From assembly GCA_009773045.1 (NCBI GenBank), contig WOUV01000011.1:1-50495 (forward strand): 50,495 nt of DNA, in the 5' to 3' direction. The notes below the pieces were generated by a model. The model was not told the origin of the DNA, did not search any database, and saw only the letters and a list, made by a program, of their open reading frames with translations. Below, one piece after another: positions 31,478 to 46,868 of this stretch (the stretch's first letter is position 1; each line of letters begins with the position of its first letter). Position numbers and translations under genes: made by a program. Source of the DNA: Rhodospirillaceae bacterium. GTDB taxonomy: Bacteria > Pseudomonadota > Alphaproteobacteria > Rhodospirillales > Rhodospirillaceae.

Positions 31478-32434
31478 TCACTTTCCGGTCAAAACGGCCC
31501 GCAGTTCATCCTCCGCCACGGGAGCCGTCTTCTCGTGCGCGTGCTTCTGTTCATGCTTGTGTCCGCCGGTGGCCCGGATATGCAGGGCGCCAAGATGGGG
31601 CACTCGGGAGCTGACGGACTCCTTCACGGTTTCGCACAGACGGTGCGCCTCCGCCACCGACAGGTGGGGATCGACCGCAAGAACCATGTCCCCCCAGATT
31701 TCCTGCCCCACGTGGCGGGAGCGGAACTGGGGGACGGCCACCACACCCGGCGTCGCGCGGGCGATGGCCAGAATATGCCCGCGCATGGGTTCATGCACGC
31801 TGCGATCCATCAACCCCTTGCAGGCCTCCCAGAAAATCCACACGCCAAGGTAAAGAAGATCAAAAGTCTCAAAAATGGCGATGGCAACGTCAAGCCATGT
31901 CATCCCCAGATAATGCGCCCCGACGATTCCCCCCGCCACCATTCCGGAGGTCACCGCGTCGGAGTGGCTGTGCCTGGCCAGAGTGTGCACCATCGGACTG
32001 TTGGTCTCGATCGCGACACATCCCGCGTAACGGTTCATGAACAGATTGACCGCAACCGCCACCAGCGCCGCCCACAAGGCGACCAGATGGGGCGCCTTGT
32101 GTTCCTCGGGTCGCAACAAAATCTGCACAGTATGTACCAGCAGATAGCCAGTGATGACCAGAAATACAACGCTGATGACCAGAGACAAAACAAATTCGAT
32201 CTTGCCATGACCATAGGGATGGTCTTCATCCAGCGGCTTGTCGGAAACCGAAAGACCGACGATGACCAGAAGGGAAGTAATGACGTCTTTTACAGAATAC
32301 ATGGTATCGACCAGCATCGCCTGCGATCCGGAAACCAGACCGACCAGCGCCTTCATGAACGCCAGCGCCAGATTGATGCCAAGCCCCACCCAGCCGACGG
32401 TCCGGACACAGGCAACGCAGCGATCGAACCGCAT
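31478..32434 (-). CDS. mamM: Magnetosome CDF transporter MamM
   Basis: GWVGLGINLALAFMKALVGLVSGSQAMLVDTMYSVKD, DEDHPYGHGKIEFVLS, RCVAIETNSP-like segment, RHVGQEIWGDMVLAVDPHLSVAEAHRLCE; matches my recollection of Magnetospirillum MamM along its length. Confidence 0.87.
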   Translation of the reverse strand: MRFDRCVACVRTVGWVGLGINLALAFMKALVGLVSGSQAMLVDTMYSVKDVITSLLVIVGLSVSDKPLDEDHPYGHGKIEFVLSLVISVVFLVITGYLLVHTVQILLRPEEHKAPHLVALWAALVAVAVNLFMNRYAGCVAIETNSPMVHTLARHSHSDAVTSGMVAGGIVGAHYLGMTWLDVAIAIFETFDLLYLGVWIFWEACKGLMDRSVHEPMRGHILAIARATPGVVAVPQFRSRHVGQEIWGDMVLAVDPHLSVAEAHRLCETVKESVSSRVPHLGALHIRATGGHKHEQKHAHEKTAPVAEDELRAVLTGK

Positions 32435-32513
32435 GTTTCTTTCCCTTTGAAGGCATTCCATTCGTGCGCCTTACCGATCAAGCCCCCCCCCCGGCATCCG
32501 ATGCGCACAGGCC

Positions 32514-32791: not shown

Positions 32792-33820
32792 TCACGTTTC
32801 CATCGTCGTGTGCCCAAGTTTGCTCCAATATTTCGGCGGCAGTTCCTGGGCCAGTTTCAAGGCGCCCGCGCATCCGTCATAGATCGGATCGGCCACCGCC
32901 GTCACCCGCACCGCGCCGTAATCGACCAGTTCGGCGGTGATGAAGTCCGCAAGCCCCCGGATCTGGGACCCGCCGCCGGCCAGGATGATGTTTTGCAGGA
33001 CCACCGCCTGATCCTCCGGCGGAAATTCTTCCACCAGCCGCTTCACATTTTCGATGATATCGGGCAGGACAGACTCACAGGCCGTTCGGATCTGTTCCCC
33101 CACCTCGAGAGTCACCGGTTTGCCGCCGGCGCGCAAGGCAACCTCCACCGGCCCCTGGCCGGGACCGACAAAGGCGTGCGCTTCCTTGATGGCGCACGCG
33201 ACGTTCAGATTCATCTGGACATGGGGATAGCGTTCGAGGAGTGCTTCTTGCAGACATTCGTCAATGAAATGGCCCGCCTTCGTCAAGGTCACCTGATCTT
33301 CCGGTGCCGGCATCCTGCCTTTCATGGCGCACAAATCCACCGTCCCGGCGCCGATGTCGATGACAAGGGCGTTCATGAGCTTGCCCTGGCCATAGGCCAC
33401 CATGAACGGTTCCGAGACCACCATGGCGGTGTGCAGGACATCCTGGGCGATACGCAAAAGGGCGGATTTATTGGCGTTCGAGGCCCGGGCCGGCACGCCG
33501 ATGACGGCACAAAGCCCTTCCCCTCCTCCGGCGCGACCGACGACGTAGCGCATCAGGTCATGGGCGACATCAACGTCACGCTGGCTGTATTCCCGCAAAA
33601 CGCCATCTTCGAGCGGATAGCGCAAGTCGAGAAACGAACGCTTCTCGTAGGCTTCATCCCCCACCAGCAACGGCGCCCCCAGCAATTTCAGGCCGATGAC
33701 ATCCTTGGGGTATCCAACCACCGAGCGGATGACTTCCCGTAATCCCCGATTGGACATGATGGCGGTTCGTGATGTCCCAAAGTCGATTCCCAACAATAAT
33801 GATTCATCCGCGGCGTTCAT
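32792..33820 (-). CDS. mamK: Magnetosome actin-like protein MamK
   Basis: LLLGIDFGTSRTAIMSNRG, SVVGYPKDVIGLKLLG, LDLRYPLEDGVL, CAVIGVPARASNANKSALLRIAQDVLHTAMVVSEPFMVAYG, IDIGAGTVDLCAMKG, LAGGGSQIRGL. Confidence 0.93.
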   Translation of the reverse strand: MNAADESLLLGIDFGTSRTAIMSNRGLREVIRSVVGYPKDVIGLKLLGAPLLVGDEAYEKRSFLDLRYPLEDGVLREYSQRDVDVAHDLMRYVVGRAGGGEGLCAVIGVPARASNANKSALLRIAQDVLHTAMVVSEPFMVAYGQGKLMNALVIDIGAGTVDLCAMKGRMPAPEDQVTLTKAGHFIDECLQEALLERYPHVQMNLNVACAIKEAHAFVGPGQGPVEVALRAGGKPVTLEVGEQIRTACESVLPDIIENVKRLVEEFPPEDQAVVLQNIILAGGGSQIRGLADFITAELVDYGAVRVTAVADPIYDGCAGALKLAQELPPKYWSKLGHTTMET

Positions 33821-33917
33821 TTCTTTCTTCCCCGCTGCATTGTGCGGCCCCACGACCAAAATTCTAGCACGTCGACACGCTTTGCGCCAGAGCCGTCCCC
33901 TGCGCCTGCATGCGGCG

Positions 33918-35734
33918 CTACAGCACGGCGTAGAACACAACGCCTCCGCGTCCTGTTTTCACAAGAATATCTCGTTGCCCGGAAACGCCACGCAACACGC
34001 GCGCCAGGGCCTGGGGGGTATCCACCGGTTCGTTGTTGATCGTGAAAAGAAAATCTCCCGGACGCAGTCCAGCCCCGGCCGCCGGCGAGCCGGCCCGCAC
34101 TTCGTTCACCACCGCACCCGTCCAGGGTGCCCCCTGTCATCGCACCCGTCAGGGGGTCCCCCTTTGGCGCTTGCACGGTCATTTGGCCGAAAGTTTCGAT
34201 CTCAAGGCCCAGTCAAGTGAACTCCTTGGGAGTCGTTCCGGCCGCGGGGGGAGTCATTCCGGCCGCGGGGAGAATCGTTCCGGCCGCGGATGCTGGCGAC
34301 GGTGCATTTGCCCCTTCCTGCAGGGCCATCGTCCGGTCGCGACGCCGCCCTTCCCGAAGAACCGACAGGCGGACCGTCTCCCCGGGTTTGCACGCCCCCA
34401 GCATCGCCTGCACCTGGGCCGGTGTGGAAACCCGGCGCCCGTCCACCTTGATCAAAACATCACCCGGCGCGATCTCCGCCCCCGTCAGGGGGGAACGGGG
34501 CGCGACGGCGGCGATGAAAATTCCCTCCCCCGCCCCGCGGCCGATTCGCCGGCCCAGGGGCGGCGTCAGGGGATGCATCTGCGCCCCCAGCACCGTCACC
34601 CCCGCCACGTTGACCCCAAGCGTCCGGGAATCGAACGGCGCAGAAACGACCCCCGCCAAGCCTCCGGCCGGCGGAAACATCTGATGGCAGGCCAGGCAGT
34701 TCGCTTTCTCCCGCCCGTCGGTGTGCGCGGCGCCACCGCCCCGACTCGTATGGGCGGAGCCGCGTTGGCGTTCGGCAGCGCCACCGGTCGCGCCAGTTCT
34801 CCCCCGATTTCCTTTTCCAGGAACGCGCGCACCGTGTTGCTGGGGATGGCGAACCCGATCCCTGAAAAAGCCCCGGTCGGCGTATAGATGGCCGTGTTGA
34901 TGCCAATCACGGAGCCTTCCCCGTTCACCAGCGGTCCGCCGGAGTTGCCTTGATTGATGGCGGCATCGGTTTGAATCAGGTCAGAGTGGGTCACCCCTTC
35001 GATGGCGAGCGCCTTGCGTATGCCAGAAACGATGCCGCGGCTCACCGTCTGGTCAAGACCAAAGGGACTGCCGATGCTGATGACCTCCTCGGCCAGGCGC
35101 ACCCGGTCGCTGTCCCCAAGGATGACCGCGGGTAACGGCGTTTTGAGTGCGATGTGTAAAAGCGCAAGATCGACCCTTTCATCGAGCCGGATGACCCGCG
35201 CCGTATAGCGCCGCGTTCCCCCGTCGTCGAACACGGTCACCTGGGCGCCGGAGGCGCCGCGCACGACGTGGGCATTGGTCACGATGAAGCCATCCCCGCG
35301 GAGGACGATGACACCCGATCCCATGTTCTCCAGCACCCCGCCGGCAAGGGGGGTTGCGAACTGCACATCGCCCTCGGGTCGCGGTGTCGTGATGGGGGCC
35401 GTGAGAGGGGCCGTCACGGAGGGGCCGGGGCGAAGCACGGTCACATTGACCACGCTGTCGCGCAACGCCAGGGCGATCTGGGAAAAATCGCGCCCAACGA
35501 GCCGTCCCGGACGCTCCGCGGGAGAGAAGGCGGCGCCAGCGGAAACGACGCGACAGGCACCACCCCCGGGGCATTGACAACGACGGCAGGCGATCGCCCC
35601 CCCAAACCCACCGACTGCCCCCACGCCGCCGCCAGAATGAGAACGGCAAGGGCGCCGATTCCATACAGATATTTCCGTGAATGTTTCGCACAGACGACCG
35701 ATGACTCCTCCCCTTCCTCCCCCTCCTCCATCAT
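33918..35734 (-). pseudogene. mamE: Magnetosome HtrA-like protease MamE (trypsin-like domain, magnetochrome CXXCH, PDZ domains), frame broken several times
   Basis: TM anchor SRKYLYGIGALAVLILAAAW; VTNAHVVRG (His), RVDLALLHI (Asp), NQGNSGGPLV (Ser); ANCLACHQMFPPAGG magnetochrome; PDZ1 GIFIAAVAPRSPLTGAEIAPGDVLIKVDGRRV; PDZ2 VVNEVRAGSPAAGAGLRPGDFLFTINNEPVDTPQAL. Confidence 0.82.
34229..34291. repeat. Three tandem 21-bp units in the MamE inter-PDZ linker
   Basis: GGAGTCGTTCCGGCCGCGGGG / GGAGTCATTCCGGCCGCGGGG / AGAATCGTTCCGGCCGCGGAT. Confidence 0.9.
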
Positions 35735-35736
35735 TC

Positions 35737-35943
35737 CTACCCCTCGTCTCCGAGCAGATCGTCATCCTTGCTCCGCTCGGGCGTTCGCACCGCCGTCACC
35801 CCGACGGCGAGGGCGAGAAGACCCACGATCACCAGCACGATCGGAACCAGCCCACGCAGGAGATCCACGACAGACCACCACCAGACCGCTCCTCCCCACA
35901 GGCCAAGCGCCATCGCCAGCAAACCAACAATAATCCACGGCAT
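35737..35943 (-). CDS. mamI: Magnetosome protein MamI (68 aa)
   Basis: MPWIIVGLLAMALGLWGGAVWWWSVVDLLRGLVPIVLVIVGLLALAVGVTAVRTPERSKDDDLLGDEG; two-TM, located between mamH and mamE. Confidence 0.85.
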   Translation of the reverse strand: MPWIIVGLLAMALGLWGGAVWWWSVVDLLRGLVPIVLVIVGLLALAVGVTAVRTPERSKDDDLLGDEG

Positions 35944-35953
35944 TCTCCCGCCC

Positions 35954-37247
35954 TCACATTCCATTTTGCGACGTTTCACCGCCGTCAGAGGCTCGTGCCG
36001 GCTGTTGCGCAGCCCCGCGGCCCCCATCATGACCCACAGCGCATAGCACACTATGACCACGTTGCCTAGACCAGTGAACACGAAAGGCGCGTAAGGCCCC
36101 ACGGCATCGAACAGCACACCGCCTGTTTCCAGAAACACGATGACGCCGATTCCCCCCCCGACCACATTGAACGCCCCCATCACCGACCCCAGAATCGACC
36201 GCGGCGCAAGGTCGATGGCCAGCACCTGCGGCGGCCACAAGGCACCCCCCCTGACCGGCGGCCAGAATCACGGCCGGCAGAACGATGATTCCCTTGAATG
36301 GATTGACGATGAACCCCAGCCCGATCAGCCCCACACCGGACAACGCCATGCCGGCGGCCAAGGCCGTGATGCGCCCGAATCGTTCGATCACCCGTCCCCA
36401 CACTGGAATCGATACCAGCACAACGAGTCCCACGAGACCGATCAGAAGGCCGTCCGTCGCCGCGGCCCGTTCCTGTGATATCCCCACAAGATCAGCGAAA
36501 TAGATATACCATAACATGAAGAACATGCCAACCAGAACCATATCACTGCGGGCAAAAAACGCCGCGGCGAAGGCGAGTCGCATGCGGGGGTCCGAACGCA
36601 GGAGATGCCCGATCCGGCGCCAGGGAATCCGGCTTTCCTCAGGACGCGGCGCCACATCCACAAGACACCCTCTGGCCAGGACCGCCCCCGCGAAGGGCCA
36701 CCGCCGCCGTCATCAGCATCACCGTGACCGTCCCGACATGGGGCGTCATCTGTATCAGCACGGCATAAACCAGTGTCGCCCCGAAGGCCGTCATGAAGGC
36801 GGCATTGGCCATCAACCGGGGTCGGCTGGTGGCGGAGCTGAAATCTCCGACCAATGTCGTCAACTGCGGCCACACCGCCCCCGCCCCCAGGGACATGATG
36901 ACCCGCGCCATGGAATAAACGGCAATGCCCCCCACGCCGAACAGAACCGCAAGGTCCGGACTGAACGGCGCCAACACCGCGCCACATCCCGCCACCACGA
37001 ACCCGACGATGATGATCGGGACCCGCCCCAGACGATCGGACAAATAGCCAAGATACCCGACCAGCACAAGGCCAAGGACTTCCGTCACCACCTGCACGTT
37101 GGCATTGATGACCCCGGCGCTGGCCAACGGAACGGCCAGCACGGTTCGCAAAAACAACGGCTGAATGGCCACCGACAAGGCGAGGAAAATCATCGTCAGG
37201 GCCGCCAGCAGGTAAAGACCGTTGTAATGCCTGAGTTCGATGGACAC
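35954..37247 (-). pseudogene. mamH: Magnetosome MFS transporter MamH, frame broken near 36670-36690 and near 36235-36251
   Basis: MSIELRHYNGLYLLAALTMIFLALSVAIQPLFLRTVL...[116 protein letters not shown], spread over three ORFs. Confidence 0.87.
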
Positions 37248-40265: not shown

Positions 40266-40504
40266 ATTCCATTTCCAAACATCAAGGAATCACCCGATCC
40301 CGGTCGCGACCCATGCGTTTCCAGCGTTCTTTATATGGCCTGTACAACGCTCCTTGGCAAGAGCGAAAGAGCGGTCCTTCAGAATCAAAAAGCGGGAGTC
40401 GGCGGTTTGCGGAAACGCCTGCCCGATTTTGCGCCTGACTTGACCAACATCAACTCACAGCCGTTATTCGCCTTATAAATTTTCTGGATATAGCGTATGC
40501 CCTG

Positions 40505-40550
40505 AAGGTACCCGTCTCTCAGAGAGTAAGGTACCCGTCTCTCAGAGAAT
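40505..40550 (+). repeat. Two tandem 23-bp repeats upstream of the molybdoenzyme start
   Basis: AAGGTACCCGTCTCTCAGAGAGT then AAGGTACCCGTCTCTCAGAGAAT; each contains the palindrome TCTCTCAGAGA. Confidence 0.93.
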
Positions 40551-40560
40551 GAGGAAAGCG

Positions 40561-43500
40561 ATGGCGAAGGACGATCACACCCCGCAAGGGTTCAGCAGAC
40601 GGCGATTCTTGACAACCCTGGCCCTTGGCGGTGCCGGCAGCGCGGCCCTGTCGCAACACGCCGTGGCGGCCATGGGAAATCTCGTGCCTTTGGTCGTGGA
40701 CAATCCTTTACAAGCCCATCCGGATCGTGACTGGGAAAAGGTGTATCGCAATCTTTACGCCCACGATTCGACATTCACGTTTCTTTGCGCGCCCAACGAT
40801 ACACACAATTGCCTTTTGAACGCCTTTGTCAAAAACGGGGTCGTGACGCGAATCGGCCCGACCTATGGTTTCGGCAAGGCAACGGACCTCGATGGCAAGG
40901 CCGCAAGCGGCCGCTGGGACCCCCGCTGTTGCCAGAAGGGTCTTGCACTGGCGCGGCGCTTTTATGGCGACCGCCGGGTCAAGCGACCCATGGTGCGCCA
41001 GGGATTCCTCGCCTGGGCCAAGGCGGGTTTCCCGCACGATTCCAAAACCGGCGGCCCTGATCTCAAATACATGAACCGCGGTCGCGACTCGTGGGCCACC
41101 GTCAGCTGGGATGAAGCCCTCGCCCTGGAGGCGGCGGCCCTGATCGATATCGCCAAAACCTATTCGGGCAATGCCGGCACGCAACGACTGCTGGCGCAAG
41201 GGTACGATCCCCTGGTGGTCGAGGCCACCGGCGGGACGGGAACACAGGTGCTGAAATTCCGCGGCGGCATGCCCGCCCTGGGGATCACCCGCATCTTCGC
41301 CCAGTATCGCATGGCCAATGCCATGGCGCTTCTGGACGACACGATCCGCGGCACCGGAGCGGACAAAGCGGTGGGCGCCCGCGGTTGGGATAACTATAGC
41401 TGGCACACGGACCTGCCGCCAGGACATCCGATGGTCACCGGCCACCAGACCAACGACTTCGATCTTTCGTGCGCCGAACATGCCGACCTGATCCTGGTCT
41501 GGGGCGTGAACTGGATCACCACCAAAATGCCGGACGGGCACTGGCTGAGCGAGGCCCGCCTGAAGGGTACGAAAGTGGTGGCCATCTCCGCCGAATACAG
41601 CGCCACCTGCACGCCGGCCCTTGCCCTGGGTCTTGCGCAGGTGATGCTGACGGAAAAACTGTATGATGCCGATTACGTCAAAAGTGCCACCGATCTGCCG
41701 TTGCTCGTGCGCATGGATACCGGCGATCTGTTGCAAGCGGCCGCTGTGTTCGCCGATTACAAACTGGCGGATCTGAAAAACGGCATCACCCTGCTGAAAG
41801 AAGGCGACACGCCTCCCAAAGGCACCCAGGAATCGGGAGCCGTCGTCACCGAGAGCATGCGCCGGAAATGGGGCGATCATGTGGTCTAGGACAGCGCCCG
41901 AAAAGTTCCGGTTGCCGTCAACCGCGATCAGGTGGACCGGCATTTTCTGGACCTTGGCTTTGACCCGATGCTGGAAGGAACGGTGGAGGTGCCTCTGGCC
42001 GATGGCCAAAAGGTTTCCTGCCGGCCGGTCTTCGATGTCATGAAAGAACTGCTCGATGGCAGCTATACCCCCGCCGATGTGGAGAAACTGACCTGGGCAC
42101 CGGCGGAAGCGGTGCGGAGCCTTGCCCGGCAGATTGCCGCCAACAAGGAAAAAACCCTGTTTGCCATGGGCATGGGACCAAATCAGTTCTTCAACAACGA
42201 TCTCAAGGACCGCGCCGTGTTTCTGGTCGCGGCCCTGACCCGGAATATCGGGCGCGTCGGCGGCAACATTGGCAGCTTCGCCGGCAATTTCCGCGCCGCC
42301 TTCTTCAACGGCCTGCCGCAATATATCGCCGAGGACCCGTTCAACATCGAGAACGACCCGGCCAAACCCGCCCGGGTACGCTCGCGCTGGAAAGCGGAAA
42401 GCGTCCATTACTGGAACCACGGCGACAAGATCTTGCGGGTCGGGACCGCGGTCCTCACCGGCAAAAGCCACATGCCAACGCCCACCAAATCGATTCACGT
42501 CTCCAACTCCAACTCGCTGATCGGCAACGTCAAGGGCCATTACGAGGTGGTGGTCAACGTCCTGCCCAAGGTCGAACTGCTGGCCGTCAATGAATGGTGG
42601 TGGACGGCCAGTTGCGAATGCGCCGATATCGTGTTCCCGGTCGATAGCTGGGCCGAGTTCAAGTATCCCGACGTGACCATATCGGTGACGAACCCGTTCC
42701 TGTATGTGTTCCCAACCACGCCGTTGCCGCGCATTCACGATACCCGTTCGGATCTGGAAGTAGCCGCCGGCGTTTGTCGCGCCATCGGCACCCTCACCAA
42801 CGATGCCCGTCACGACGCCTATTGGCAGTTCGTGGAGAAAGGCCAGGGGCGGCCTTATATCCAGCGTATCCTCGATGCCTCCAACGCGACCCGTGGCTAT
42901 ACGATCGACGATCTGGAAGCCAAGGCGAAAAAAGGCGTGCCGGCCATCATCCAGACCCGCACCTATCCGAAATGGTCGGGCTATGAACAGACCATGGAGG
43001 CGAAACCATATTACACCCGCACCGGGCGGCTTGAGTTCTATCGCGATGAACCCGAGTTCAAGGACGCCGGCAAGAACCTGATCGTGCACCGCGAGCCGAT
43101 CGATTCAACTTTTTATGAACCAAACGTCATCGTCGCCAAGGCCCATCCGCTCCTGAAGCCGAAAGGCCTGAAAGAATACGGGCTGAACGGCGATGATCTG
43201 TCGGGTGAAACCCGCCAGGCCCGCAACGTCATCCGCACCGTCGATGAGCTGCTCAAAACGAAACATCCCCTGATGCAGGAGCCGGGCTACCGCTTCATTT
43301 TCCACACTCCCAAATACCGTCACGGCGCCCACACGACGGCGGTCGATACCGATATCGTCGCCCTGTGGTTCGGCCCGTTCGGCGACATGTACCGCACCGA
43401 CACGCGCCAGCCCTTCGTCACGGAAGCCTTTATCGATATCAACCCGAAGGATGCCAAGGATCTGGGGGTCGAGGACGGTGACTACGTGTATATCGACGCC

Positions 43501-44019
43501 GATCCGCACGACCGCCCGTTCCACGGTTGGCAGAACAAGCCCGAGGCCTATCAGATGGCCCGGCTGCTGGCCCGCGCCCGCTATTACGCCGGCACGCCGC
43601 GGGGGGGGGTGACCCGCATGTGGCACAACATGTATGGCGCCACCTATGGTTCTTATGCCGGACACACGGCGAAAAACGGCAACGGCCTCGCCAAGGCACC
43701 CGGCACCGGCTATCAGTCCCTGTTCCGCAGCGGCAGCCACCAAAGCTGCACCCGCGGCTGGATCAAGCCCACCTTGATGACCGACAGCCTGACCGTCAAG
43801 GGCCTGTTCGGCCAGCGGGTGGTGCAAGGGTTCGTGCCCGATGTTCACTGCCCAACCGGCGCCCCCCGCGAGTCGATGGTGCGCATAGCCAAGGCGGAAA
43901 ACGGCGGTCTCAATGGCAACGGCCTGTGGCTGCCGGCGGCGCAAGGCTTGCGTCCCACCTATGAACGTCCGGCGTTCAAGGACTATATCGCCGGTCAATT
44001 CGTCCGGACCGGGGCTTGA
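40561..44019 (+). pseudogene. Type II DMSO-reductase family molybdopterin oxidoreductase, catalytic subunit (NxrA/NarG-like); in-frame TAG at 41887-41889
   Basis: TAT signal SRRRFLTTLAL; FS0-type Cys region LCAPNDTHNCLLNAFVKNG...[32 protein letters not shown] (Mo-ligand Asp region). ORFs 40549..41889 and 41932..44019 are in the same frame, separated only by TAG. Confidence 0.85.
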
Positions 44020-44036
44020 GGGAAGGAACCATCATC

Positions 44037-45161
44037 ATGGCACGCAACAATCGTCACATCGGGCGCACGATGGCCTATCCTTACGAGGCGCCGCCGCCAA
44101 AGCGGCAATCGGCCATTATTTTCGATCCCAACAAGTGCATCGCCTGCCAAACCTGTTCGGTCGCCTGCAAGTCAGCCTGGACCAGCGGCAAGGGGCAGGA
44201 ACACATTTTCTATAACAACGTCGAGACCAAACCCTATGGGGGCTATCCGATCGGCTGGGATCTGAAGCTGATGGAACGCCTGGGGCCGGCGCAGTGGGAA
44301 GGCGGACGCCTCGCCTCCAAGACCATTTTCGATGGCGGCGATCCTCTGGAAACCGTGTTCGGCCACGCGCCGGCCATGACCGATTACGCCAGCCCCAATC
44401 TGGGCGAGGACGAAGTGGCCGGCCAGCTTGAACACGGCGCCCACTTTGCCGGGGCAACGCATCCGTTGTGGATGTTCTATCTCGCGCGCACCTGCAATCA
44501 TTACGATAATCCGGCCTGCCTAGCCTCCTGCCCGCGCAAGGCCATCTACAAGCGCGAGGAAGACGGGATCGTTCTCATCGACCAGAAACGCTGCCGCGGC
44601 TATCAGGAATGCGTTCGCGCCTGTCCCTACAAGAAAACCTTTTTCAACGCGGTTAGCCGGGTATCGGAAAAATGCATCGGCTGTTATCCGCGCACCGAAC
44701 AGGGGGAAGTGCCGTTGTGCGTCGAAAGTTGCATCGGCAAGGTCCGTCTGCACGGTTTTTTGTCCACCGACACGCCGCGCGAGGACAACCCCCTCGATTA
44801 CATCGTGCGCATCCGCAAGTTGGCCCTGCCGCTCTATCCGCAGTTCGGCACCGGCCCCAATTCATACTATATCCCCCCGCTCAGCGTGCCCGAGAAGTTC
44901 CTGACCCAGATGTTCGGCCCGGGCGTCGAGGAGGCGCGCAAAACCTATCGCATGATCAAGGACGACAAGCAGCTTCTGGGCGCCATGATGCTGTTCGGTG
45001 CAAGCACACGCATCATCACGACGTTCAAGGTGGAAGGCGATACCGCTATCGGTTGGGACGGCGCGGGCAAGGAAGTGGCGCGGGTGCCCTTCACCGAGCC
45101 GGTTTATGTTCGTGACCACCGCGACGAGCGCTTTGCCGTCTATCGCCATAACACGCCGTGA
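44037..45161 (+). CDS. Iron-sulfur beta subunit (NarH/NxrB/EbdB-like)
   Basis: DPNKCIACQTCSVACKSAW, CNHYDNPACLASCPRKAIYKREEDGIVLIDQKRCRGYQECVRACPYKKTFFN, CIGCYPRTEQGEVPLCVESC. Confidence 0.92.
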   Translation: MARNNRHIGRTMAYPYEAPPPKRQSAIIFDPNKCIACQTCSVACKSAWTSGKGQEHIFYNNVETKPYGGYPIGWDLKLMERLGPAQWEGGRLASKTIFDGGDPLETVFGHAPAMTDYASPNLGEDEVAGQLEHGAHFAGATHPLWMFYLARTCNHYDNPACLASCPRKAIYKREEDGIVLIDQKRCRGYQECVRACPYKKTFFNAVSRVSEKCIGCYPRTEQGEVPLCVESCIGKVRLHGFLSTDTPREDNPLDYIVRIRKLALPLYPQFGTGPNSYYIPPLSVPEKFLTQMFGPGVEEARKTYRMIKDDKQLLGAMMLFGASTRIITTFKVEGDTAIGWDGAGKEVARVPFTEPVYVRDHRDERFAVYRHNTP

Positions 45162-45175
45162 TGGAGGCCACACCC

Positions 45176-46114
45176 ATGACGAAACCTGTCCGTTTTTCCG
45201 CCGCCGCCGCCTTTACCCTTGGCCTGTTCGCCTGGCCGCCGGCGATGCCCCCCATCGCCCATGCGGCCGAGACCCGGACGGCATGGTTGCCGTCCGGGAC
45301 CCTTATTCCCCTGCCGGCTAAACAGGCCGACGCCCTGAGGATCACGAAAACGGCCAAACTGCCCGTCTCGCCCCTGGACAAGGACTGGACGGCGGTTCCG
45401 GCCCTGCGTGTCGCCGTTCAGCCCCAGCAAATGACCGCCCCCAGCCTTGCCAAGGCCAGCATCTCCGCCCTGGAGGTCCAAGCCGTGACGGACGGCAAGG
45501 CGGTGGCCTGGCGGTTGACGTGGGAAGACCCCTTCCCCGACGGCAACGTGGAAACCAGCCGTTTCAGCGATGCGGTTGCCCTTGAGTTCCCCGTGTCCAA
45601 GGATGCGGCGGCCACCATGGGGCATCCCGACGGCGGGCGGGTGCAGATCCTGTACTGGAAAGCCCTGTGGCAAAAAGACAAGGACGTGGGCTTTCAGGAT
45701 GTCCAGGCCCTGCACCCGAATGTATATTCCGATCTTTACTGGTTCGCCTCGGGGGGAGCACCCTATCCGATGGCCACGGCCTTCAAGGACACGCGGTCCC
45801 AGGCGTGGCTGATCGCCCAATCCGCCGGCAATCCGATGGCGGTGGTCGGGAGGGCGCAACCGGTGGAGGAATTGACCGCCGAAGGGTGGGGAACCCTGAC
45901 CCACCAGCCCGATTCCGCCACCACCGCCGCGGGGGTCTGGGCGGCGGGCCGCTGGTCGGTCGTGTTCACACGTCCCTTGATGACAGGCGATTCCCTGGAT
46001 TACCAGTTCCAGTCCAGTGGTCAGGTGGCGTTTGCCGTCTGGCAGGGCGGCACGGGCAACACGGGGGGGCGCAAGCATTGGGCGGACTGGAGTACGTTTG
46101 AGGTGCAAAAATGA
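45176..46114 (+). CDS. Ethylbenzene-dehydrogenase-related heme-b gamma subunit
   Basis: Sec signal peptide; AVAWRLTWEDPFPDGN, RFSDAVALEFPV, GRWSVVFTRPL...YQFQSSGQVAFAVWQGGTGNTGGRKHWADWSTFEV. Confidence 0.82.
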   Translation: MTKPVRFSAAAAFTLGLFAWPPAMPPIAHAAETRTAWLPSGTLIPLPAKQADALRITKTAKLPVSPLDKDWTAVPALRVAVQPQQMTAPSLAKASISALEVQAVTDGKAVAWRLTWEDPFPDGNVETSRFSDAVALEFPVSKDAAATMGHPDGGRVQILYWKALWQKDKDVGFQDVQALHPNVYSDLYWFASGGAPYPMATAFKDTRSQAWLIAQSAGNPMAVVGRAQPVEELTAEGWGTLTHQPDSATTAAGVWAAGRWSVVFTRPLMTGDSLDYQFQSSGQVAFAVWQGGTGNTGGRKHWADWSTFEVQK

Positions 46115-46868
46115 ATGACGCGGCGCTGACTCCCGCGGCAGATTCACCGTTGCTGACGGTAACCGCGACGTGCCTTGCCTCCCTGCCCTTGCTGGCGCAA
46201 GCGGATCTGTTGCTGGCGGCCGCCCGTTTGTTCCGCCCGCCCGCCGCCGACCTCGCTGCCCTGACCGGCGACCTGGCGGCCGCCGCCGGCACACTGGTCC
46301 ATGGGGCCGGTCTGCCGGCGGCCCACGCGGTGGTGGAAACTCTGACCGCTCTCGCCGGAGCGGTCGCAACGACGCCGCCGGAAGAGTTGACGATTGAATA
46401 CGTGCGGCTGTTCGAAGGCGAGATGGCATGCCCGCCCAACGAAACCGCCTATATCCGTCGGGACAAGGGGGCGGTGCTGGGGGACATCGCCGGATTCTAT
46501 CACGCTTTCGGCGTTGCAACGGCGGCTTGTGAAAAACCCGACCACGTGGCCGCCGAATTGGAGTTCATGGCGGCCCTTCTGGTGATGCAGGTCAAGGCCA
46601 CGACGACGGAAAAGGCCGAAACCGCCCGCCATGCCCTGTCCCTATTCGTGGCGGATCATGCCGGAGACCGGGTGCCGTCATTCACAGCGCGCCTGGCCGC
46701 CGTGGCGGCCCTGCCGTCTATCAGCAAGCCGCCTCCCTGCTCGCCGCCATTTGGGAAGGCATGGCCGTCGTGCAGGGCTTTGCCATACCAGAACTCCTGC
46801 CGAACGGCGGAACGGATTCCCCAGACTCGTCCTGTGACATGACATGCGGCCTGCCGGGGGCTTCCTGA
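46111..46868 (+). pseudogene. TorD-like chaperone for the molybdoenzyme; frameshift near 46718
   Basis: LTIEYVRLFEGEMACPPNETAYIRRDKGAVLGDIAGFYHAFGV, ELEFMAALLVMQ. C-terminus YQQAASLLAAIWEGMAVVQGFAIPELLPNGG is in the next frame. Confidence 0.75.

Follow-up and report, generated by a model that had tools for sequence, protein, structure and literature searches.

The closest relative of known structure to the enzyme considered here is the nitrite oxidoreductase (NXR) of Kuenenia stuttgartiensis (PDB 7b04; subunits NXR-A, NXR-B and NXR-C), in which the roles of the FS0 iron-sulfur (FeS) cluster, the substrate asparagine and the aspartate at the molybdenum (Mo-Asp) have been assigned (PMC8387239). 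The NXR of Nitrotoga and the periplasmic nitrate reductase (NAR) of Hydrogenobacter thermophilus are reported to belong to a sister lineage of the Nitrospira and anammox NXRs that contains nitrate reductases as well as an NXR (PMC6050957), and a gene of large sulfur bacteria has been termed a putative dissimilatory nitrate reductase, NxrA/NarG (PMC6052272). Here we describe a related four-gene operon in a Rhodospirillaceae bacterium, located on contig WOUV01000011.1; the window analysed is this whole contig of 50.5 kb, from a genome of 2.57 Mb in 241 contigs. We put at roughly two in three the probability that the product of the operon is a soluble nitrate/nitrite oxidoreductase of the periplasm that stands beside the Nitrospira and anammox NXRs and would work mainly as a low-oxygen nitrate reductase, with the faults in its genes being sequence errors rather than signs of a pseudogene.

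The operon occupies positions 40561-46842 of the + strand and comprises genes for an NxrA/NarG-like catalytic (alpha) subunit of the type that carries molybdenum-bis(molybdopterin guanine dinucleotide) (Mo-bisMGD; 40561..44019), an NxrB/NarH-like FeS (beta) subunit (44037..45161), a heme-b (gamma) subunit of the EB_dh/TIGR03477 type with a signal-like stretch at its N-terminus (45176..46114), and a TorD/NarJ-type chaperone (46111..46842). The order alpha-beta-gamma-TorD recurs across phyla among the homologous loci compared, and for each of alpha, beta and gamma the strongest PDB match is a Kuenenia NXR subunit. The ATG of the catalytic gene at 40561 is preceded by GAGGAAAG, within an open reading frame (ORF) that opens at 40549, and an SRRRFL twin-arginine translocation (Tat) motif can be read near the N-terminus of its product. 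These results bear out much of the original prediction, which had named the same four genes, a Tat signal with FS0 and Mo-Asp regions in the catalytic subunit, a beta subunit of the four-cluster type (it is indeed a multi-cluster FeS protein) and a heme-b gamma subunit.

Homology searches place the catalytic subunit with the periplasmic NXRs. It matches Kuenenia NxrA over its full length with an E-value of 5e-250, whereas NarG gives ~1e-28 to 1e-30, PcrA gives 1e-45 and EbdA is also far weaker, in agreement with the earlier claim that the enzyme is closer to periplasmic NxrA than to NarG. The FS0 ligands C80, D84, C88 and C128, the substrate residue Asn83 and Mo-Asp288 are all retained; C80, N83, D84, C88, C128, H286 and D288 are invariant across the 82 homologues in the alignment, and the FS0 ligands and the asparagine are also present in Kuenenia. 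An FS0 site of three cysteines and one aspartate, with the substrate asparagine directly before the aspartate, is characteristic of the superclade of periplasmic NXRs and NARs, and the other features of that group, a Tat-exported alpha subunit and a soluble heme-b gamma subunit with Met/Lys ligands, are predicted here as well. Specifically, Met148 (70/70 homologues) and Lys300 (68/68) of gamma are retained, at the positions that ligate heme in NXR-C and in ethylbenzene dehydrogenase (EBDH). The window enzyme thus shares with Kuenenia NXR its three subunits, full-length homology, FS0 site, asparagine, Mo-Asp and gamma ligands, but its alpha subunit is only ~39% identical. Tat export is also common to the Nitrotoga/Hydrogenobacter lineage; the Nitrotoga molybdenum motif Y-4x-D-11x-QM (PMC6050957) is absent, the window enzyme having QT at its end, as do 81 of 82 homologues. 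Curated family models argue against other assignments: the NarG model (TIGR01580) scores 60 bits against a cut-off of 1084, a cysteine standing where NarG FS0 has its histidine ligand; the NapA model (TIGR01706) has no match on the window contig and at most 139 bits elsewhere in the genome against a cut-off of 931; and the model for the Clr/Ser/Ddh/Ebd/Pcr group (TIGR03479) gives 174 bits for one half of the split gene and 114 bits for the other against a cut-off of 985, the split itself lowering the score.

We found at least 576 relatives of the catalytic subunit, spread over genome records of many phyla. The tree groups the window sequence, with an SH-aLRT support of 100, in a clade of 17 rows that also includes Thioploca, Parabeggiatoa, Thiomargarita, Thiosymbion and Pirellulaceae. 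The Thioploca alpha subunit is 71% identical to it, the Thioploca/Parabeggiatoa/Thiomargarita group as a whole being 68-71% identical in alpha and 69-70% in beta, and the genes of these large sulfur bacteria are uninterrupted, unlike those of the window. Kuenenia, the sole proven NXR in the tree and a long branch, lies outside an 83-row clade (support 100) that contains the window sequence, which is therefore not inside the clade of proven NXRs, as far as this one reference defines it. The enzyme belongs to a broad clade separate from Kuenenia NXR, in which its nearest neighbours are the 'NxrA/NarG' genes of Thiotrichaceae and the gene of another alphaproteobacterium. The catalytic gene is rare in the class (3/386 genomes). 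An intact homologue from another alphaproteobacterial family (L297) is 72% identical. Two relatives from the window's own family, at 54% identity, group instead with Magnetococcales in a different subclade, and the gene is therefore likely to have passed from one lineage to another.

The region upstream of the operon suggests how it may be regulated. A perfect FNR-type box, TTGACCAACATCAA, lies at 40440..40453 (+), and a -10-like TATAAA lies 30 nt downstream of it, centre to centre, at 40474-40479, near the spacing of class II FNR sites. In the 400 nt that precede the catalytic gene, a perfect TTGAN6TCAA is present in 17 of 25 Pseudomonadota homologues, window included, as compared to an expectation of 0.28 in 25 from dinucleotide shuffling (maximum of 2 in 300 shuffles), and in none of 52 homologues from other phyla over the same 400 nt. 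The loci with such boxes (L032, L033, L035, L036, L038-L041, L045, L046, L050, L060, L071, L297, L298 and L003) come from Alpha-, Beta- and Gammaproteobacteria and Magnetococcales, and include Thioploca and one Parabeggiatoa locus. In Magnetospirillum, similar boxes precede denitrification operons (PMC4065386), and in the present genome another TTGAN6TCAA lies upstream of the nir cluster, at 11597 of L256. Closer to the start codon, the leader contains two 19-nt direct repeats, GGTACCCGTCTCTCAGAGA, at 40507-40525 and 40530-40548 (+), which were found in no other fetched locus except copies of this stretch.

As written, the catalytic gene is unable to give a full-length protein. An in-frame TAG at 41887..41889 (+; codon 447 counted from 40549, in the frame read from 40549 to 44019) splits it into ORFs of 446 and 695 residues; at this column Kuenenia NxrA and 67 of the 82 homologues have tryptophan, and a single G-to-A change converts TGG to TAG. 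Further upstream, a segment of 15 residues corresponds to 28 in all 87 other aligned sequences, so that 13 residues (39 nt, ..KADEVIVVRPGT..) are missing at the junction at 41607..41611 (+). The RPGT(D) stretch at this gap, the MGD loop, binds the pterin cofactor in the dimethyl sulfoxide reductase family. In the beta subunit, 15 of 16 conserved cluster cysteine columns are retained; residue 156 is tyrosine (TAC, codon 44502-44504), as compared to a cluster cysteine in 75 of 75 homologues. The chaperone gene shifts frame near 46714, its natural C-terminus continuing in another frame. The original prediction called the operon complete and remarked on none of these four lesions; in this assembly, the four genes are not all open and the cofactor residues are not all present. 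A second in-frame TAG suspected in the homologue of genome G511 was dismissed on checking, its ORF being open over 1158 codons.

The lesions could reflect faults in the sequence, decay of the operon, or recoding. The only adk gene of the genome (L151:4582-5173, contig C5) is frameshifted and lacks ~13 residues. Adenylate kinase is essential in bacteria, so the sequence does contain such faults, which makes assembly error the likeliest cause of the lesions in the operon. Similarly, a comparison with a single-contig relative across ~76 kb of conserved genes gave 2 frameshifts in the present genome, along with 10 deletions of at least 8 residues, as against 0 and 2 in the reverse direction; this evidence is based on homology, since a genome-wide search for frameshifts by coding potential was too noisy, with a similar rate in a control genome. 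The competing view, that of a recent pseudogene in a lineage that is losing the enzyme, with all four lesions being genuine mutations, is a serious contender, although the less probable one. It would account for four independent damaging changes in one operon and would fit the small genome, the split mamH and mamE genes and the damaged nir cluster (L256:11954-17853, contig C224), in which only the C-terminal part of nirS is present, beside a COX2-like gene, and nirG, nirL and nirJ are apparently frameshifted (gene names assigned by eye). Against it, the gene otherwise keeps its catalytic residues and its coding bias, and the single-copy adk, needed for life, is broken alike. In our judgement, which was not computed, error in the sequence or its assembly is favored over a pseudogene by about two to one. 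That readthrough of the TAG, or its decoding as an amino acid, leaves the gene functional as it stands is scarcely credible: the 695 downstream codons are open and strongly coding and a Trp codon is one base away, but the homologues have a sense codon at this position and readthrough would still leave 13 residues missing. Reassignment of TAG across the genome was considered and rejected, as TAG is the stop codon of 18 of 165 sampled genes, including the gene immediately ahead of serA (SerC-like by eye).

With regard to function, retention of the FS0 ligands, the asparagine and Mo-Asp, together with the altered asparagine and first FS0 positions of ClrA, points to nitrate or nitrite and away from other substrates of type II enzymes. 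The original prediction had left open a wide list, and an enzyme for (per)chlorate, selenate, dimethyl sulfide or a hydrocarbon would agree with the EBDH-type heme-b fold of gamma; we nonetheless regard it as very improbable, as ClrA is just 27% identical, with glycine at the asparagine position and histidine as first FS0 ligand, EBDH has isoleucine at the asparagine position, PcrA and EbdA score far below NXR, and the nearest relatives come from Thiotrichaceae reported to be nitrate reducers. The direction of the reaction is most likely periplasmic nitrate reduction at low oxygen, as judged from the sequence: the FNR-type box, the reportedly nitrate-reducing Thiotrichaceae relatives and the lack of any NarG or NapA above cut-off in a genome that has nir genes together favor it. 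These same observations make it unlikely that the enzyme is a periplasmic NXR that oxidises nitrite and supplies the electrons to cytochrome c and an aa3 oxidase, a role in keeping with the closest solved relative being an NXR that works both ways, with aa3-type enzymes being the only heme-copper oxidases found in the genome, and with the mixture of NXRs and nitrate reductases in the lineage of Nitrotoga NXR (PMC6050957). Several considerations nevertheless weigh against our preferred reading of a nitrate reductase in a wrongly sequenced but intact operon. Four separate lesions in 6.3 kb exceed the rough genome-wide rate, which favors real decay; with nirS truncated and nirG, nirL and nirJ apparently frameshifted, the denitrification chain may not work; and an FNR-family box shows regulation, not direction. 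To our knowledge, no member of the exact clade has been assayed. Parabeggiatoa and Thiomargarita also have a true NarG, and the enzyme may act otherwise there, while the chemistry of Kuenenia NXR is reversible (PMC8387239).

A working scheme for the nitrate reductase can be assembled from these features. An FNR-type regulator would switch the operon on as oxygen falls, and the TorD-like protein, by analogy with its family, would load Mo-bisMGD into the catalytic subunit. The signals suggest that the Tat pathway exports the catalytic subunit carrying beta along with it, and that gamma is exported separately. Electrons would then pass from a periplasmic cytochrome c to the Met/Lys-ligated heme b, through four FeS clusters to the Asp-ligated FS0 and on to the molybdenum, where nitrate would be reduced to nitrite in a reaction that is probably reversible, as in Kuenenia NXR.

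Upstream of the operon, on the opposite strand, are genes for a thioredoxin-TPR protein and a LON-domain protein, with magnetosome genes beyond them. MamM (31478-32461) and MamK (32792-33895) score above the NCBI curated cut-offs, and MamE and MamH are partial, their genes being split by frameshifts (34596-37247, -), with mamH spread over three or more reading frames. From the end of the MamH piece at 37247 to the operon is 3.3 kb, which confirms the distance of about 3 kb noted originally. The suggested link to iron biomineralization has this proximity as its support: searches with the window's mam proteins detected no mam genes near the other loci, which include several of magnetotactic bacteria, Magnetococcales and a magnetotactic Nitrospirota bacterium among them, although the flanks searched span at most 10 kb, less at contig ends, and more distant mam genes may be missed. 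The neighbourhood is therefore no evidence of joint function. A tie between nitrate reduction and magnetite is known for Nap of Magnetospirillum (PMC4065386), a magnetotactic alphaproteobacterium that also reduces nitrate in the periplasm; Nap belongs to an unrelated subfamily. It is conceivable, if doubtful, that in the present magnetotactic lineage the NXR-type enzyme replaces Nap, including its redox role in magnetite formation, in which case an intact gene would be expressed along with low-oxygen magnetosome synthesis. A 'nitrite oxidoreductase' is listed by name among the enzymes of magnetotactic, calcium-carbonate-forming Azospirillaceae (PMC11773610), so there is a precedent for such an enzyme in magnetotactic Alphaproteobacteria.

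The survey of homologues yielded some further observations. A metagenome-assembled genome labelled 'Nitrospira japonica' (L069) has just one long homologue, an enzyme of this clade, with no other relative of full length; its label may be wrong. As few members of its family carry any homologue either, it was not used as an NXR reference. Plasmid 2 of Natronococcus occultus (L142:5001-8488) contains a catalytic homologue (44%) in two pieces with no listed gene, which looks broken and adjoins listed beta and TorD genes. Genes for cytochrome c (L085, L039), a ScdA/hemerythrin protein (L085) and a MOSC protein (L060) next to homologues provide loose hints.

These results serve as a warning that an operon judged complete by eye may be interrupted in its assembly. 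The enzyme is present in hundreds of genome records across many phyla, under the labels NarG, NxrA or molybdopterin oxidoreductase, and nitrite oxidisers cannot yet be told from nitrate reducers by sequence alone. Conservation of the FNR-type box in most of the Pseudomonadota homologues opens the direction to testing and speaks against labelling an organism a nitrifier from this gene alone.

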